From NCBI RefSeq assembly GCF_009905375.1, contig NC_133649.1:240110198-240174197 (forward strand): a stretch of 64,000 nt of DNA, given 5' to 3'. Positions within the stretch are counted from its first letter, which is position 1. Every line of letters starts with the position of its first letter. The notes under the pieces are model-generated. The model made no database searches. It worked only from the letters and a program-made list of their open reading frames with translations, and had not been told where the DNA came from. This document shows, in pieces, positions 15,052 to 50,369 of this stretch. Made by a program: the position numbers and the translations under genes. This DNA is from Apium graveolens (taxonomy: Eukaryota; Streptophyta; Magnoliopsida; Apiales; Apiaceae).

Positions 15052-15953
15052 TAGATGATTTCTCAAAGTTCTCTTGGACATATTTCCTAAAGTCTAAAGA
15101 TGAGGCTAGTGAAATAATTATCAATCACATAAGGCAAGTCAATAATCATCCTGATTTCAAAGTGAGAAGAATTTGGAGTGACAATGGAACTGAGTTCAAG
15201 AATTCTGTCATGAGAGCATTTTGTGAAGAAAATGGAATTTTGCATGAGTTTTCAGCAGCAAGAACTCCATAACAGAAAGAAGTAGTGGAAATGAAGAACA
15301 TATCACTTATTGAAGCTACCAGGATAATGCTTGAAGAATCTAAATTACCAACATATTTATGGGCTGGAGCTGTAAATACTGCATGCTACACTCGGAATAT
15401 TTCTCTGATTAATCAAGCAAAATGCATGACTCCCTATCAATTGTTCAAGAACAAGAAGCCAACTCTAAATTTTCTTCATGTCTTTGGTTGCAAATGTTAT
15501 ATCTTGAGAAATCAAACTGATCAGAATGGAAAGTTTGATGCTAAAGCAGATGAAGGAATTTTTGTTGGATATGCTATTGGTAAAGCATATAGAGTCTACA
15601 ATCTAAGAACCAACATTGTTGTGGAATCAATACATGTTGTGTTTGATGATAAAAAGATTGAAGGACTACAAGATGGAGACTACCATGAGAGCCTCAAATT
15701 TGACAATGTGGAGATGGTTAGTGATGAAAGTGATGATGAAAGTGATCAAGAAACAGTATCAAAGGATAATGCAGAAAATCTATTACCAATGAAGCACAAA
15801 ATTCAATATCTGTCGAGTTGCATAATACTTCATCCGTCGGGAGACAATCTGCCTTATCCGTCGAAAGGCAACTTGCTTCATCCGTCAGTACTCAAAATTC
15901 ACCATCCTTCGGGTTATCAAAAGGAGCTGGGAGTCAGGATAGATCACTTATAG
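15052..15953 (+). pseudogene. SIRE copy A: integrase, 5'-truncated
   Basis: The frame starts abruptly at DDFSKFSWTYFLKSKDEAS, which is internal to the copia integrase core, so gag, protease, the integrase zinc finger and the first catalytic Asp are missing. The second Asp is present in RIWSDNGTEF. The third catalytic position, normally GVVERKN, reads EVVEMKN after an in-frame TAA near 15270. The rest follows the copia order: NLP-TYLWAGAV, FHVFGCKCYILR, DEGIFVGYA, YNLRT. A frameshift around 15790-15950 separates it from the RT frame. Integrase inserts cDNA. The left junction abuts unrelated sequence, so the copy lost its 5' half by deletion or recombination. Confidence 0.88.
15818..15912 (+). 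repeat. ATCCGTCGA motif cluster in integrase-RT linker
   Basis: Four copies of ATCCGTCGG/A or a close variant (for example CTTCATCCGTCGGGAGAC) at about 25-bp spacing, in the Ser-rich linker between integrase and RT. Two reading frames are open here; the one leading into RT reads SSV at the motif. Confidence 0.8.
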
Positions 15954-17332
15954 AAAGCTCCCCTCTCTCAAATCAAAGATCCATTAACTCAGGGAGAGTT
16001 TTTAACAATCAAAACTCAATCACACATCAAGACAACAATGATGCCTCTTCATCTAGAGCTAATCTACCTCAACAAAGAAAATGGACAAAGAATCACCCCT
16101 TTGAGCTCATCATTGGTGATATATCTTCCAGAGTTCAAACAAGGAGGGCAACTCAAGAAGAATGTCTATACATCAGCTTTCTTTCAAAGGAAGAACCAAA
16201 GAAGGTAGAAGAAGCTTTGTTGGATCCTGATTGGATTTTAGTTATGCAGGAGGAGCTAAACCAATTTGAGAGGAATAAGGTATGGAAGCTGGTGCCCAAG
16301 CCTAGAGGAAAGAATCCAATTGACACCAAATGGGTATTCAGAAACAAGATGGATGAAAATGGCATAGTAGTCAGGAACAAAGCTAGATTGGTTGCTAAGG
16401 GCTATTACCAACAAGAAGGAATAGATTTTGATGAAAAATTTGCTCCTGTTGCAAGACTTAAAGCCATTACAATCTTCTTAGCCTATGCAGCCCATGCCAA
16501 TTTCAAGGTCCATCAAATGGATGTCAAAAGTGCCTTTCTGAATGGAGACTTGGAGGAGGAAGTCTATGTTAGTCAGCCTCCTGGTTTTGAAGATCCAAAT
16601 TTTCCAGAATATGTCTACTATCTTTTGAAAGCACTTTATGGATTGAAGCAAGCACCTAGAGCCTGGTATGACACTTTATCAAAGTTCCTTTTCGAAAATC
16701 ACTGCACAAGAGGTACTGTAGATAAAACTTTATTCTTTAGAAATGTTAATGGTTCTAGTATACTTGTTCAAATTTATGTAGATGACATTATTTTTTACTC
16801 TATAGATGAAAAACTTTGCAAAAAGTTTTCCAAATTGATGTAGAGTAAGTATGAAATGAGTATGATGGGAGAACTGACTTACTTTCTTTGTTTGCAAGTT
16901 AAGCAAGTTAGTGATGGAATATTTATTAGTCAAACTAAATACATTTATGATCTTTTAAAGAAGTTTGATCTAATGGATTGCACATCTACAAAAACTCCCA
17001 TGGCCACTGCAACTAAGCTTGAATTAAACACTACTGAAAAGTCTGTGGATATTTCAAGTTATAGGGACATGGTTAGCTCACTTCTGTACTTAACAGCTAG
17101 TAGGCCAGATATAATGTTTGCTACATGTTTGTGTGCTAGATTTCAGGCTGATCCTAGAGAATCTCACTTAGTAGCAATTAAGAGAATTTTCAGATATCTC
17201 AAGGGAACACCAAAACTTGGCATTTGGTACCCTAGAGATTCTGTTTTTGATCTAACTGGTTATTCAAATGCAGATTATGCAGGGTGTAAAATTGATAGAA
17301 AAAGTACAACAGGAACCTGTCAATTTCTATGA
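15954..17332 (+). pseudogene. SIRE copy A: reverse transcriptase
   Basis: Copia-type [17 protein letters not shown] linker end, [50 protein letters not shown], the [19 protein letters not shown] block and the catalytic YVDD at 16775-16786. Downstream GELTYFLCLQVKQ, GMVxSLLYLTASRPDI and DYAGCKIDRKSTTGTCQF complete the domain. In-frame stops at 16841-16843 (TAG, one change from CAG) and about 17330 (TGA, one change from GGA) and the frameshift before it mark a recently lost gene. RT copies genomic RNA into DNA. The lineage call (SIRE/Maximus) rests on the large ORF following RNase H. Confidence 0.9.
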
Positions 17333-27580: not shown

Positions 27581-29142
27581 GAAACTAATCTGCCTCCAAG
27601 AAATTGGCAGCTTCCACTTGTGCTTTTCCTGTCAATTTTGCATCCTGCAAAATCTGCATCTGAGTAACCTATTAGCTTAAAGTCTGATTCTCTAGGATAC
27701 CACAATCCCAGATCAGTTGTACCCTTAAGGTACTTGAAAATTCTTTTTACAACTGTTAAGTTAGGTTCTCTTGGATCTTCTTGAAATCTTGCACAAAGAC
27801 AGGTTGCATACATGATATCAGGTCTACTTGCAGTTAGATAGAGTAGTGAGCCAATCATACCTCTGTAATTAGTAATATCTACTGATGTACCAGTATCTTT
27901 ATCCAATTTTGTTACAGTGGCCATAGGAGTGGATGCACTTGAACAGTCCTGCATTCCAAATTTCTTCAACAAATTTCTGGTGTACTTAGATTGACAAATA
28001 AAAGTTTTTTCTTCATTATGCTTGACTTGAAGGCCTAGAAAATAGCTAAGTTATCCTATCATACTCATTTGATATATTGACTGCATTAGCTTGGCAAACC
28101 TTTTACAAAGTCTGTCATTTGTAGAACCAAAAATGCTATCATCAACATATATCTGCAACAAAAGTAAGTCCTTTCCATGGTTGAGATAAAACAATGTTTT
28201 GTCACTAGTCCCTCTGTTAAATCCACTTTCCAGAAGAAACTGAGCTAATGTCTCATACCATGCTCTTGGAGCTTGCTTAAGGTCATAAAGTGCTTTATCA
28301 AGTCTGTAGACATGATTAGGAAATTTTGATTCTACAAAACCTGGAGGTTGTTCAACATATACTTCTTCTTCTAATTCTCCATTAATAAAAGCAGTTTTTA
28401 CATACATTTGAAAGACTGTAAACTTTTTGTGAGCTGCATAAGCCAAAAATATCCTTATGGCTTCCAATCTAGCAACTGGTGCAAATGTTTCATCATAATC
28501 AATTCCCTCATATTGAGAATATCCTTTTGCAACCAGCCTTGCTTTATTCCTTGTAATTATGCCATCACTATCAGTTTTGTTTCTGAACACCCACTTTGTA
28601 CCAACAACAAATCTGTTCTTTGGTCTTGGCACCAGGGTCCAGACTTTATTTCTTTTAAATTCATTTAACTCTTCCTGCATTGCTTGCACCCAATCAGCAT
28701 CTTGAAGAGCTTCTTCCACTTTCTTTGGGTCAGTCTGAGAAAGAAAAGAATGATAGAAACATTCATTTGATGTTGCTGTTCTAGTTCTAATACCTGCTTC
28801 AGGATCTCCAATAAACAAGTCAGGTGTATGTGCTTCAGTCCACTTCCTTGCAGATGGAAGGTTATCTCTAGAAATGGATGCTCCCCCATGATCCATGTTG
28901 TCTCCATCAAAATTTTCTAATGCTCCCCCTAAAATCATGCTCTCTGAGTTGGATCCTTCAGAATTTGAGTTTCCAAAATTATCAGTATTTGAGTTTCCAG
29001 AATTATCAGAACTTGACCCATCAGAACTTGATGAATCAGAACTTGAAGAGCCTGTTCTGGATTCTGATGCTTCTTGAGATGTGGTTGCATCTTCAATATG
29101 CTCCCCTTGCACATGTGCACTTTCCTTTGGCGTAGTTACCAC
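27581..29142 (-). pseudogene. SIRE-2: integrase-RT linker and reverse transcriptase
   Basis: A Ser/Asp/Asn-rich linker (28925-29142) leads to [15 protein letters not shown] and copia [83 protein letters not shown], catalytic YVDD at about 28137-28148 ([10 protein letters not shown]), and after two stops near 28050 the GMIGSLLYLTASRPDIMYAT and GYSDADFAGCKIDRKST blocks. It is the best preserved RT in the window: most of it is one 363-codon frame. It differs clearly from copies A and B, so it is a separate family. Confidence 0.92.
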
Positions 29143-41924: not shown

Positions 41925-43653
41925 TGAAGGGTTTTAGCACATAAACGCAACGAAAACGTAAATTTAAATCTTAAAAAAAATGAAACCCTCCGCAGGATCC
42001 ATGCGAAAAATAATATTTAATTCGTAGCTCAGTATGTTTACCTTAAGAAGCTTTACGCTAATGGAAAGATGGAGGTCTTTAATAGCGATCCAAGAACGAT
42101 GAACGGAAATCCCTAGCAGCTGCTCCTCAAGTGTGAAGCACTCCACCGGTATCCACCAAGAGTACAATGTGATGGAGGAGGAAGAGGTTGAGAGAATTAG
42201 TTGCCTCCCTCTTGTTATACTTTAGAATTAGGGTTAATTATTTGGGTTGAGGCAAATAGGGTTTATAATAGTATATTTATAGGCAAAATTTTCAGCTAAA
42301 TTTTTTTTATAAAATATTATTATTATTAACCCTTTAATTGATTATTCTTATTAACCAGTTAACTAATAATTAAAAGACCTTTTAATCACTAATCCCTTTT
42401 CTAAACACTTTAGAAAAATAATTCTCTCACTTGATTTAATTTCCAAAATTAAATTCTTAATTAATAATATTAAGAATTAATTAAATCTCATTTAATCAAT
42501 TATTAAATCTGCTAATTAATTATTTGTTTCATAAATAAATAATTACCAGCCATTATTAATTAATTCCTCCACCATTAAATCATTCTCTTTTATGGTGTGA
42601 CCCTGTAGGTTCAATATTAAGCCGGTAGTAGAAATAAATAATAATAAAACTATTTTATCATTATTTATATAAATTCTCTAATTCATTAAATATGATTAAT
42701 TAATAAATTAATCATATTTATTATACATCGTGAGGGATACTTCTCAGCATATCGCGACTATCCGGATAATACGAATTCACTGCTTAGAATACCAAGAACA
42801 TATTCAGTGAGTAGATACCGTACAATCAATTCCTTCTACCCTGCAATGTCACGATTAAATACAAGGCATAGAACTTGTGTCAAGCCTATCTTATTTAATC
42901 ATTTGCTTTCTCATTCACTATGCTTAGTTCTATTTAATGTAAATTAGAAACTCCTTTCTAATTCCATTCACTCTGGCCAGAGATTCTTGAACTAGCATAA
43001 GTGGATCAGCATTAAACATTCTCTTCCTTCACTGGAAGGGGTAGATCCTTTATTGATCATACACTATCTTCGTGTACAAATTCCTATACCCAGTAGAGCC
43101 CTTATAATTGTCCCTGGAGACTAAGAACTAAACCAAAGCATAGTTTAGTGTACACAAGATGACTATAATGACCTCAACTCTAAGGATACTTGTACAACTA
43201 TCACTATGTGAACAACTGCTAACACGTGAGTGAACTCCATCAGTTGTTCAGCTGTGTGAGTCATGTTCAGTGAACTTATTCTATAATAAGCACCTACATA
43301 CTAGCTATAGTGTCACCACACAAATGTCTGTGAGAACAGACATCCTTCATAATGAAGCAAGCATAGTATGTACCGATCTTTGCGGATTACTAATTACCAG
43401 TTAGTAATCCTATGACCAGGAAATATTTAAGTTTAGAGTTATCATCTTTTAGGTCTCATTATTATGATCTCATCATAATCCATAAAAAGCTTTAATCTAA
43501 ACTATGGTATATCTTATTTAAACACTTAAATATATAAAGCCCGCAATAAAACCAAAACAAGTCTTTTATTAATATCAATGAAATCAAAACAGATTACATA
43601 AAAGTTATTCCTAAATCATCATACATGATTGGACTTAGGACACATCTCTTTCA
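41925..43653 (-). repeat. 3' LTR of the copia element
   Basis: On the minus strand starts TGAAAGAGATGTG next to the PPT and ends AAACCCTTCA. Paired with 48637-50364. Confidence 0.93.
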
Positions 43654-43664
43654 ATCTCCCACTT
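43654..43664 (-). other. Polypurine tract of the copia element
   Basis: Minus strand AAGTGGGAGAT abuts LTR start TGAAAGAG. Confidence 0.85.
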
Positions 43665-46220: not shown

Positions 46221-46727
46221 CTACGAGAACGAACTCGGAAGTGATTGCAAGACCAAATCTTGGCTCAGCTCCCCATCCATGACAAAACCAAGTTGTCCAA
46301 GACGTTCAATCAAATTGATCATCTTAAGTACATGGTCATTCACAGATGATCCCTCAGACATCCTACAACCGAACAGCTCCTTCGATATCTCATATCGAGC
46401 TGTCCTCCCTGCCACATCATACAACTCTTGTAGATGCATAAGGATAGTGTGAGCATCCATATGCTCATGTTGCTTCTATAGCTCAATGTTCATGGAAGCT
46501 AGCATGATGCATTGAGCAACATTTGCATCATCTATCCACTTACGATACACAACATGTTCATCATTATGTGCATCACTAGCAGGTTCAGTAGGCTTAGGTG
46601 AGTCAAACACATATTCCAGCTTCTCAACCCTGAGAACAATTCTAAAGTTTCGAAGCCAGTCAGCAAAATTAGGACCAGTCAACTTGTGAGCATCTAGTAT
46701 ACTCCGGAGTGATAGTGCAGAAGACAT
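46221..46727 (-). pseudogene. Copia gag N-terminal part
   Basis: ATG at 46727 (MSSALSLRSILDAHKLTGPN), FADWLRNFRIVLRVEKLEYV and VVYRKWIDDANVAQCIMLAS, then a TAG near 46473 and AHTILMHLQELYDVAGRTAR, MSEGSSVNDHVLKMINLIE. This is the standard plant copia gag. A second stop near 46218 separates it from the zinc-knuckle frame. The start is chosen because an upstream in-frame ATG (46760) adds only hydrophobic residues not typical of gag. Confidence 0.85.
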
Positions 46728-46832
46728 AACAAATATAGTAAATCTGTAAATGATGAACACATAACAACACTTAGCAAATATTCAATTTCATTTCAAGACA
46801 CTATACGAATCGGGTCTTTATTCATAAGTGGC

Positions 46833-46898
46833 TCCCACTAGTTTATCTAATTTATACAACCATTAAGTGAAAATTAAGCATTCATAATGCTAGTGGGA
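46833..46898 (-). other. Leader stem-loop with 9-bp perfect arms, no loop motif
   Basis: TCCCACTAG (46833-46841) pairs with CTAGTGGGA (46890-46898). It lies between the gag ATG and the four motif-bearing hairpins. Confidence 0.7.
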
Positions 46899-46915
46899 AT
46901 AGGGATCCTACATTC

Positions 46916-46956
46916 CATCACACAACCTCGGCTGTAGCACGAAATGTCATGTGATG
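46916..46956 (-). other. Leader stem-loop 1 presenting CGGCTGTAGCACG
   Basis: Arms CATCACA (46916-46922) and TGTGATG (46950-46956); loop holds CTCGGCTGTAGCACGAAA. Plus-strand spelling; the RNA would carry the complement. Confidence 0.75.
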
Positions 46957-47027
46957 TTCAATAGGCAGACAACTCTTGTCAATTACATCTTATGTTATTC
47001 CCTAATAAAACTTTAGCCTCTTGAATA

Positions 47028-47060
47028 ATTGAGTCACGGCTGTAGCACGACAAACTCAAT
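47028..47060 (-). other. Leader stem-loop 2 presenting CGGCTGTAGCACG
   Basis: Arms ATTGAGT (47028-47034) and ACTCAAT (47054-47060); loop CACGGCTGTAGCACGACAA. Confidence 0.75.
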
Positions 47061-47089
47061 ATTGTAAGTCAAGTCTAACCCAACATTTC

Positions 47090-47161
47090 GTACAATTGAA
47101 TCAGTCTCCAATGGCCCACGGTTGTAGCACGTAACGACCTTTAGATTCTAATTCAATGTAC
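47090..47161 (-). other. Leader stem-loop 3 presenting CGGTTGTAGCACG
   Basis: Arms GTAC-A-ATTGAAT (47090-47101) and ATTCAATGTAC (47151-47161), 11 pairs with one bulged A; the loop includes CCACGGTTGTAGCACGTAA. Confidence 0.75.
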
Positions 47162-47188
47162 ACATCTCTATGTAATAGACAAGTATTT

Positions 47189-47247
47189 CTTATTTCGAAA
47201 TCAAAGCCCTCGGCTGTAGCACGAAACGACAATGATTTAAAAATAAG
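47189..47247 (-). other. Leader stem-loop 4 presenting CGGCTGTAGCACG
   Basis: Arms CTTATTTCGAAATCA (47189-47203) and TGATTTAAAAATAAG (47233-47247), 13 pairs around a 2x2 mismatch; the loop includes CCTCGGCTGTAGCACGAAA. Confidence 0.78.
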
Positions 47248-48623
47248 AACCACTTTCTACCATGTTGGAAGGCTATGACTGACAAGCCCGTTGTGTCATT
47301 GGCCAATTACTACTTGATATTATTTAATTTTAGAGGGATTATATTATGTTACAATCATAATCATATTATAAAGAGATTCTTCCTTTTAAATTAAATATTT
47401 CAAATCAATAATCGATAATCAGATGATTCCCAGATCGGGGGGAGCATTGTCAAGAGGCGTCACTTAATACCCCTTTCTTACAGATAGAAATCTGCTTTTG
47501 GCAGAATCATCCTTTCTCTCAATATTGAAAATTCATATTTAATTACGTGTTTCATAAACACAAGAATCTCATGATTGTATTCATAATATTATTGTTAAGG
47601 TAAGAAATGATTCCTATTCTAGATTTTCTAGAGCACGCCTTATATTGATTTAAGTTCACCTAAATCTATCATCGCATGGTAAACATAGGCATATATCTCA
47701 TATATAAAATTAAATAAACAAGTAATTGTAAAGTGCAATAAAGTAAATGTGTTTGGTTATGGCCCCATCCTATGTGGTCTTTATCAAGCTCATGATAAAG
47801 ATCAAGGTCAATCTAATATGGTGATGGAAATAAATACAACTACTTATTACATAAGTCTTCTTCTTTGTTTAGACTTCTTGTATGCCTCATCTTCTTCTTT
47901 GTATCACCTCCATTGGATAGCCTTCTTGAGTCTTCAATTACATTACATAGATTGAAAGTAAAACTAATCTAATGAACTTACAAGAATAACTCGTGTTACA
48001 TTCGAGATTTATGATTACAAAGATTGACGACATGCAAGTCGTATTTAAAACCAAAACCAAAACCATTACACTAAGGTCTAAAGGCCATAACATCCACCAT
48101 GCTCATAAAACACATAAAAGCATGTTAAAACACATAATCTGATCTTAACATATCATATTATCCATGATCTAATCATAAAAGAAAATATGACAAAAATCAG
48201 AATCAAATCAGAAAAACAAGAATCACTGTTTACGGGCAGTAAACGACGTCAAACGCCTTACAGACGAGTCGTTGATAGCTTAACTATCAGTTTTGTTCAG
48301 ACACTCGTTACCTATGGAATAGGGTATTCATTTGCTGTAAATCGGACACCGGACCCAGATTTCAGCAAATCTGCAGCAGCCAATTCAGAATCCGTATCTT
48401 AATATGATTCTCATAATTAGAACAAACATAAATCATGTATATATCAGTATATATACAGATTACATAATCATCTTATGATTATACAACTCACATGAATATC
48501 ATATATTCAAAACCATACATATATAAGCATATTATATCAACATCAAATCATGGCGAATCACGTACATGCTACATATATCGAAAACAGTTAACACATAAAC
48601 GAATAAAAACTTTTCAGCAAGTA
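47248..48623 (-). other. Rest of copia 5' leader
   Basis: About 1.4 kb without coding sequence between the PBS and the hairpin region. One small palindrome, CAGATAGAAATCTG, near 47500. Nothing else recognised. The total leader of about 1.9 kb is long. Confidence 0.6.
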
Positions 48624-48635
48624 GCTCTGATGCCA
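48624..48635 (-). other. Primer binding site of the copia element
   Basis: Minus strand TGGCATCAGAGC, one base from the LTR end. One base differs from the common TGGTATCAGAGC complement of initiator Met tRNA. Confidence 0.9.
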
Positions 48636-48636
48636 T

Positions 48637-50364
48637 TGAAGGGTTTTAGCACATAAACGCAACGAAAACGTAAACTTAAATCTTAAAAAAAACGAAACCC
48701 TCCGCAGGATCCATGCGAAAAATAATATTTAATTCATAGTTCAGTATGTTTACCTTAAGAAGCTTTACGTTAATGGAAAGATGGAGGTTTTTAATAGCGA
48801 TCCAAGAACGATGAACGAAAATCCCTAGCAGCTGCTCCTCAAGTGTGAAGCACTCCACCGGTATCCATCAAGAGTAGAGTGTGATGTAGGAGGAAGAGGT
48901 TGAGAGAATTAGTTGCCTCCCTCTTGTTCTACTTTAGAATTAGGGTTAATTATTTGGGTCGAGGCAAATAGGGTTTATAATAGTATATTTATAGGCAAAA
49001 TTTTCAGCTGAAAATTTTCCATAAAATATTATTATCATTAACCCTTTAATTGATTATTCTTATTAACCAATTAACTAATAATTAAAACACCTTTTAATCA
49101 TTAATCCATTTTCTAAACACTTTAGAAAAATAATTCTCTCACTTGATTTAATTTCCAAAATTAAATTCTTAATTAATAATATTAAAAATTAATTAAATCT
49201 CATTTAATCAATTATTAAATCTGCTAATTAATTATTTATTTCATAAATAAATAATTACCCGCCATTATTAATTAATTCTTCCACCATTAAATCATTCTCT
49301 TTTTTGGTGTGACCCTGTAGGTTCAATATTAAGCCGGTAGTAGAAATAAATAATAATAAAACTATTTTATCATTATTTATATAAATTTTCTAATTCATTG
49401 AATATGATTAATTAATAAATCAATCATATTTATTCTACATCATGAGGGATACTTCTCAGCATATCGTGACTATCCGGATAATAGGAATTCACTGCTTAGA
49501 ATACCAAGAACCTATTCAGTGAGTAGTTACCGTACAATCAATTCCTTCTACCCTGCAATGTCATGATTAAATACAAGGCATGGAACTTGTGTCAAGCCTA
49601 TCTTATTATTCATTTTCTTTCCCATTCACTATGCTTAGTTCTATTTAATGTAAATTAGAAACTCCTTTCTAATTTCATTCACTCTGGCCAGAGATTCCTG
49701 AAATAGCATAAGTGGATCAGCATTTAACATTCTCTTCCTTCACTGGAAGGGGTAGATCCTTTATTGATCATACACTATCTTCGTGTACAAATTCCTATAC
49801 CCAGTAGAGCCCTTATAATTGTCCCTGGAGACTAAGAACTAAACCAAAGCATAGTTCAGTGTACACAAGATGACTATGATGACCTCAAGTCTAAGGATAC
49901 TTGTACAACTATCACTATATGAATAACTGCTGACACGTGAGTGAACTTCATCAGTTGTTCAGCTGTGTGAGTCATGTTCAGTCAACTTATTCTATAATAA
50001 GCACCTACATACTAGCTATAGTGTCACCACACAAATGTCTATGAGAACAGACATCCTTCATAATGAAGCAAGCATAGTATGTACCGATCTTTGCGGATTA
50101 CTAATTACCAGTTAGTAATCCTACGACCAGGAAATATTTAAGTTTAGAGTTATCATCTTTTAGGTCTCATTATTATGATCTCGTCATAATCCATAAAAAG
50201 CTTTACTCTAAACTATGGTATATCTTATATAAACACTTAAATAGATAAAGCCTACAATAAAACCAAAACAAGCCTTTTATTAATATCAATTAAATCAAAA
50301 CAGATTACATAAAAGTTATTCCTAAATCATCATACATGATTGGACTTAGGACACATCTCTTTCA
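48637..50364 (-). repeat. 5' LTR of the copia element
   Basis: 1728 bp; matches 41925-43653 along its whole length with scattered substitutions. Confidence 0.95.
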
Positions 50365-50369
50365 ATCTA
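50365..50369 (+). repeat. Target-site duplication, right copy (ATCTA)
   Basis: See the left copy at 41920-41924. ATCTA fits the gypsy reading frame (gg tta tct aag). Confidence 0.6.

Follow-up and report, generated by a model that had tools for sequence, protein, structure and literature searches.

A repeated bulged-U hairpin module in the leader of a celery copia retrotransposon as a possible Gag-binding packaging signal

Four hairpins that present the same short motif on largely different stems, in the untranslated leader of a plant retrotransposon, raise the question of which molecule may read them and with what outcome. The window analysed here, a stretch of 64,000 nucleotides of celery (Apium graveolens), carries on its minus strand a Ty1/copia LTR retrotransposon (Table 1). 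An earlier note, made from the letters of the window, had proposed that the leader of this element contains a repeated protein-binding RNA structure between the primer-binding site (PBS) and gag, and that is indeed where the four hairpins lie. We describe below the element and its relatives, the structure of the hairpins and its evolution, and the functions that they may serve.

The paired LTRs of the element (1733 bp) are 96.2% identical, as expected of a Ty1/copia retrotransposon, and the 5' LTR contains a TATA box (TATAAATA) at about 48993. We take the PBS to be of the initiator-tRNA-Met type. The gag gene begins at 46727, about 1.9 kb past the 5' LTR, and the coding part of this copy is disrupted. 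Two of its pieces match the Pfam families Pol_BBD and SH3_retrovirus, PF14223 is present in relatives of the gag piece at 46224-46475, and the reverse-transcriptase pieces are 34-40% identical to the two RVT_2 ORFs of the window. These Gag-Pol domains are those of a copia-type element, presumably of the Angela/BARE-like lineage.

Table 1. Coordinates of the element and of its leader hairpins in the window.
Feature	Position	Strand	Remark
5' LTR	48637-50368	-	direct repeat with 41925-43657
3' LTR	41925-43657	-	direct repeat with 48637-50368
Primer-binding site TGGCATCAGAGC	48624-48635	-	immediately 3' of the 5' LTR
gag start	46224-46727	-	frame read piecewise; copy broken by stop codons
Hairpin A	47188-47248	-	folds; core 47211-47223
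Hairpin B	47089-47162	-	folds; core 47119-47131
Hairpin C	47028-47060	-	folds; core 47037-47049; weakest alone, stem nearly invariant
Hairpin D	46916-46956	-	folds; core 46929-46941
Core A	47211-47223	-	exact match
Core B	47119-47131	-	C-to-T copy
Core C	47037-47049	-	exact match
Core D	46929-46941	-	exact match
Predicted domain with hairpins A and B	47080-47268	-	closing stem 47262-47268/47080-47086 in alifold of main-only, second-only and all rows
Predicted domain with hairpin D	46880-47026	-	stem 47014-47026/46880-46892 in alifold of second family and all rows; absent from main-only fold
Double-change pairs, hairpin A	47243/47193, 47235/47201	-	between families
Double-change pairs, hairpin B	47158/47093, 47154/47098	-	between families
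Double-change pair, hairpin D	46948/46924	-	G-U/G-C in main, U-G/C-G in second family

On the transcript, which corresponds to the minus strand, the repeated core reads CGUGCUACARCCG and occurs once in each hairpin, with start-to-start spacings of 108, 82 and 92 bp. The number of copies, their spacing (82-108 bp) and the presence of one variant copy were correctly described before, whereas the distance to gag was not: the array spans the region from 520 to 190 nt before the gag start. These four and no others are the exact matches to the motif in the 64 kb; when up to three mismatches are allowed, 20 matches are observed against 5.1 expected. Inside the element, further sense-strand matches are limited to two, each with three mismatches and located in the LTRs (41929 and 48641). 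No sense-strand core within two mismatches was found elsewhere in the element, and the sites, unlike those of dispersed capsid packaging signals, are accordingly not spread along the element or its coding part. The two RVT_2 ORFs mentioned above (28051-29142, minus strand; 15818-16843, plus strand) belong to other copia elements, which we assume to be SIRE-like, and have no exact core nearby.

At the scale of the celery genome, the exact core was counted 20,039 times and the reversed pattern twice, a count that misses the common loop variant. Indeed, the loop is mostly UACA or CACA in 90 main-family rows, and hairpin B alone displays 36 UACA and 42 CACA. The first 30 core loci on contig C1 correspond to 15 elements, all of which (15/15) match the leader of the window at 92-97% and continue into gag. 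The hairpin array is a family trait and not a peculiarity of the window copy. A search for a two-core pattern elsewhere returned one viral-contig locus and five genome-contig loci; judged by eye from their flanks, all six look like bacterial or phage coding sequences or tandem repeats, with no copia leader among them, and they were discarded. The hairpin region had no match among plasmids, and no Rfam covariance model matched positions 46600-49950 at E up to 1.

The evolution of the array was followed in two families of one plant genome, celery. For the main family, 55 leaders were aligned: those of the 15 C1 elements, 11 from loci with the core flanked by C and G, and 29 of the 30 best gag matches, from which the copy of the window was left out. 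The latter two groups were picked and are not random. One leader without match and four with a partial match were set aside, and 50 were kept. The second family was reached with the gag query P0016: among the 150 matches scored, 47 copies have 76-100% identity, and identity then falls to about 72%, where the main family begins. Leaders were taken from 45 of these 47 copies, of which 39 were kept after removal of three that did not match and three that covered the array incompletely. Over the array, the 39 share 78-84% identity with the window, and the family retains all four hairpins. Besides the last kilobase before gag, the second family shares with the window a similar LTR promoter region (in two of the four copies read), while the PBS-proximal leader of copies L123-L126 has no BLAST similarity to that of the window (the PBS being found in two of the four). 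In another copy, L094, LTR-end-like sequence is apparently joined to the 3' arm of hairpin B, an arrangement that would lack hairpin A and the greater part of B. The LTR transcript of the window also contains a nine-codon uORF (MDTGGVLHT, 48868-48839), which the second-family copy L125 shares with another stop codon. A third celery family, sought with the gag queries P0003 and P0017, was not found among the 150 matches scored per query, a depth that a small family could escape. These matches (65-68% and 51-54% identity, from 16,872 and 17,043 candidates, respectively) are at the level of the main family. Twenty leaders were drawn from each list; 39 of them match the main leader fully and the remaining one matches it partly.

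In the predicted folds, the hairpins share a module that consists, from the tip outward, of a YACA tetraloop, two base pairs, a bulged U, about four base pairs and a two-nucleotide bulge on the 5' side, followed by the outer stem. Hairpin C differs by having 2-3 base pairs below the bulged U versus four in A, B and D. The arms around each copy are complementary, as the earlier note had described. Its shared loop motif is shared, yet it is no plain loop but a structured module; its unlike stems are unlike in the outer part, whereas the hairpins resemble one another, A and B most of all, in the few base pairs of the inner part. Across 90 main-family and 39 second-family leaders, the pairs -5/15 and -6/16 under the second bulge are present in 92-100% of rows, in every hairpin and in the same register, and the next pair (-7/17) in 64-100%, with the minimum in second-family hairpin A. 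The topmost core pair (4/9) is found in 81-92% of rows, but in 61% for second-family B and D. Hairpin C deviates in two places: pair -2/14 is rare there (1-5% of rows), and pair -1/13 reaches 27% among the main-family rows. As in dispersed capsid packaging signals, one recognition motif is common to several hairpins. The constancy of the bulged U (T in 359 of 360 main-family and 156 of 156 second-family places) was dropped as proof of selection, since other A/T positions vary little too. Two small additional hairpins (46985-46995 and 46968-46980) are predicted between C and D from both families.

The fold of the array is more stable than expected by chance. For the 451-nt region, the folding energy is -136.9 kcal/mol, whereas shuffled sequences average -106.6 (z -4.48), and none of 100 shuffles was as good. 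In a second test, the motif was fixed and its flanks were shuffled 500 times, and the pairs that enclose the four motif centres were counted, including those within the core. With 40-nt flanks, 122 enclosing pairs were obtained (shuffled mean 52.6, maximum 101), and with 25-nt flanks 88 (mean 52.1, maximum 80). When each hairpin was assessed on its own with 40-nt flanks, most of the signal came from A and B, which have strong z values of -5.0 and -3.5, respectively. D was moderate, at z -2.4 with an enclosing-pair P of 0.21. C by itself was weak: its z was -0.1 and its P 0.018, the latter rising to 0.068 when the flanks were cut to 25 nt. Relatives that carry the motif without paired arms had been named as evidence against a structure; instead, the core lies within at least eight outer pairs in most main-family leaders (A 48/50, B 50/50, C 48/50, D 40/50) and second-family leaders (A 36/39, B 37/39, C 34/39, D 37/39), counts that are not independent because the copies share kinship.

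The majority sequences of the two families differ at 63 of 391 leader columns, namely 2/52 in the cores, 27/134 at other paired positions, 18/67 at unpaired hairpin positions and 16/138 outside the hairpins. Divergence between the families is lower outside the hairpins than in the stems, which may mean that this region serves other functions as well. Among the 82 pairs of the window fold, 59 are unchanged, 13 are still paired after a one-sided change, five are still paired after a double change and five are broken. Another treatment of majorities and ties gives 60 unchanged and four broken pairs, and 18 of the 22-23 altered pairs are thus kept. When the changes were shuffled among paired columns (null 1), the scarcity of breaks (P = 5e-5), the number of pairs kept (P = 0.002) and the double changes (P = 0.003) all departed from expectation; when the changed sites were kept and their bases redrawn (null 2), pairs kept and double changes did so with P = 0.005 and P = 0.010, respectively. 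One-sided changes led to G-U in eight cases and to A-C in one, compared with 6.6 and 4.1 under null 1 and 6.6 and 0.6 under null 2. Since null 2 matches the observed rarity of A-C, this excess is weakened as proof of folding on the sense strand.

Some pairs also vary within the main family. In hairpin D, pair 46953/46919 is U-A in 55, C-G in 23, C-A in nine and U-G in three of the 90 main rows, and pair 46942/46928 is U-G in 46, U-A in 36 and C-G in eight. Other rows break the pairing: 47150/47102 has A opposite G in 51 of the 90 main rows, and in the second family 46953/46919 is mismatched (C-A) in 32 of 39 rows. At the level of the whole structure, a consensus fold recovers 79 of the 82 pairs from the 50 main rows alone and 68 from the 39 second-family rows alone. 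The structure of each family holds in the other in 87.1% and 90.1% of pair cells, versus 38-47% and 31-43% in strand-slid controls. Over the whole leader, changed pairs remain paired in 20 of 30 cases on the main-only structure and in 22 of 33 on the second-family structure, with 10 and 11 breaks, respectively. In the joint fold of 89 rows, 15 one-sided and five double changes keep pairing and none breaks, the structure being fitted to the same rows. Like the psi of retroelements, a structured RNA located between PBS and gag is predicted to be kept among relatives, here in two families.

A stricter, tree-aware G-test in the manner of R-scape (90 distinct rows, 60 simulated alignments) gave none of the 82 pairs an E below 0.05. 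The best pair was 47154/47098 (E 0.096), five pairs had E below 1, and no pair anywhere exceeded the null maximum. This negative outcome probably results from a tree with one deep split, which leaves little power at a mean of 2.5 substitutions per column. The covariation above background that the earlier note had expected was therefore not found, while its broader claim of selection on RNA structure retains the enclosure of the cores, the structure shared across families and the altered pairs that mostly stay paired. We consider covariation in these stems as suggestive and not as proven pair by pair.

What could such an array do? We give about an even chance to a cis-acting, multivalent packaging signal on the genomic RNA that is bound by Gag; this view involves three inferences: a protein reads the module, Gag is that protein, and its binding leads to packaging. 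The four hairpins would display the same module, their stems being free to drift as long as they remain paired, and the Gag protein of the element itself would most likely bind it. Four close sites could provide avidity, by which Gag would select the full-length RNA and start capsid assembly, and the array between PBS and gag would act in this way as a packaging signal. A conserved structured tip on drifting paired stems is what a protein reading the tip would select, and the number of sites and their location on the full-length RNA suggest the element's own Gag and packaging. Since the YACA loop is not self-complementary, reading by a protein is indicated over a loop-loop contact. Retention of the array region in the second family, next to a PBS-proximal leader that could not be aligned in the copies read, fits a cis-acting signal. 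A more elaborate version, which we regard as doubtful, is a multivalent platform whose four bulged-U/YACA modules are read cooperatively by Gag, possibly on unspliced genomic RNA only. The leader would then behave as an intron, and RNAs destined for packaging and translation would be told apart as in retroviruses.

A candidate leader intron can be delineated at 48753-46744, with AAG/GTAAAC in the LTR and TTTACAG/ ending 16 nt before the gag start (slashes mark the putative splice sites); its excision would remove 68 of the 69 AUGs upstream of gag together with the entire hairpin array. Among the rival explanations, an RNA export element ranks first, although we hold it to be unlikely. The module would recruit a host export or RNA-binding factor so that the unspliced full-length RNA leaves the nucleus. 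Paired identical loops act in some retroviral transport elements, and here an identical module is repeated on one RNA. Moreover, the plausible 3' splice site just 5' of gag retains its AG in 36 of the 40 distinct leader ends compared, 39 of which are from the main family, and a retained 3' splice site would imply a need for exporting unspliced RNA. However, four second-family pieces were inspected and the candidate 5' splice site of this element was found in none.

Control of translation appears still less probable. The array would permit a bypass of the leader, by shunt or internal entry, or would repress gag translation when bound by Gag. The 69 AUGs between the presumed start (48975) and gag, and the four hairpins that precede gag, are compatible with this proposal, but a translation element read at its loop need not occur four times, and the second-family copies that were read have not kept the PBS-proximal part of the leader.

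A small probability also goes to the absence of any RNA function, the copies being DNA-level repeats (sites of a regulatory protein or remnants of duplication) whose arms pair by chance or ancestry. The copies do share ancestry, the strict covariation test is negative (0/82), and this explanation gains somewhat from the weakened G-U argument, the excess over A-C (8 vs 1) being matched by one of the two nulls. It has difficulties, however, with stems that differ at 20% of their paired columns and yet keep 18 of 22 altered pairs (P 0.002 and 0.005), and with structures that hold across families at 87-90% versus 31-47% after sliding. A small-RNA precursor was thought unlikely, as the tip is conserved and not the stem. 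Finally, dimerisation by pairing of hairpins between two genomic RNAs is very improbable and a kissing-loop site was rejected: Ty1 has dimerisation and packaging signals near the 5' end of its RNA, as described in PMC4974528, but the UACA and CACA loops, read directly, are not self-complementary, so identical loops cannot kiss.

The proposed packaging signal has parallels in known systems. In the MS2 coat-protein operator, a tetraloop (ANYA) and two base pairs top a single bulged nucleotide (A) in the 5' arm. The predicted celery tip has the same topology, and no homology is claimed; the celery hairpins differ by their bulged U, YACA loop and second, two-nucleotide bulge. In STNV and MS2, the capsid protein recognises a short motif common to the loops of several stem-loops (PMC3662417), and repeated hairpins that have a motif in common contribute to capsid assembly in HBV (PMC7612645). 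The likeness lies in several hairpins with one shared motif. The difference is that the celery copies are all gathered in a single leader array of 330 nt, with a module that contains a bulged U.

LTR retrotransposons provide two further comparisons. BARE is, like the celery element, a copia retrotransposon with an untranslated leader before gag; its translated and packaged RNAs form separate pools, and conserved dimerisation and packaging signals are stated without detail for BARE2 of barley, no repeated hairpin array being described in the accessible text (PMC3735527). In Ty1, a cis-acting RNA near the 5' end is likewise required for packaging, but it involves a pseudoknot and kissing loops, its Gag sites are not precisely defined and the accessible text mentions no repeated module; the packaging sequences of Ty1 and Ty3 are described there as not clearly defined (PMC4974528). 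In the literature searched on retroelement leaders, packaging and hairpin signals (including accessible parts of PMC12786077 and PMC9324142, with most subscription papers and supplements outside its range), no such array is described for a plant copia leader.

To conclude, the element that carries the array is highly repeated in the genome of a crop, 46.43% of whose sequence is assigned to copia elements (PMC8051603). If the cooperative platform considered above is real, it would, as far as the literature searched shows, be the first Gag-binding array of countable modules to be defined in a plant LTR retrotransposon. How LTR retrotransposons choose their genomic RNA is poorly defined, and a short module with exact sites offers a direct experimental handle on this choice.
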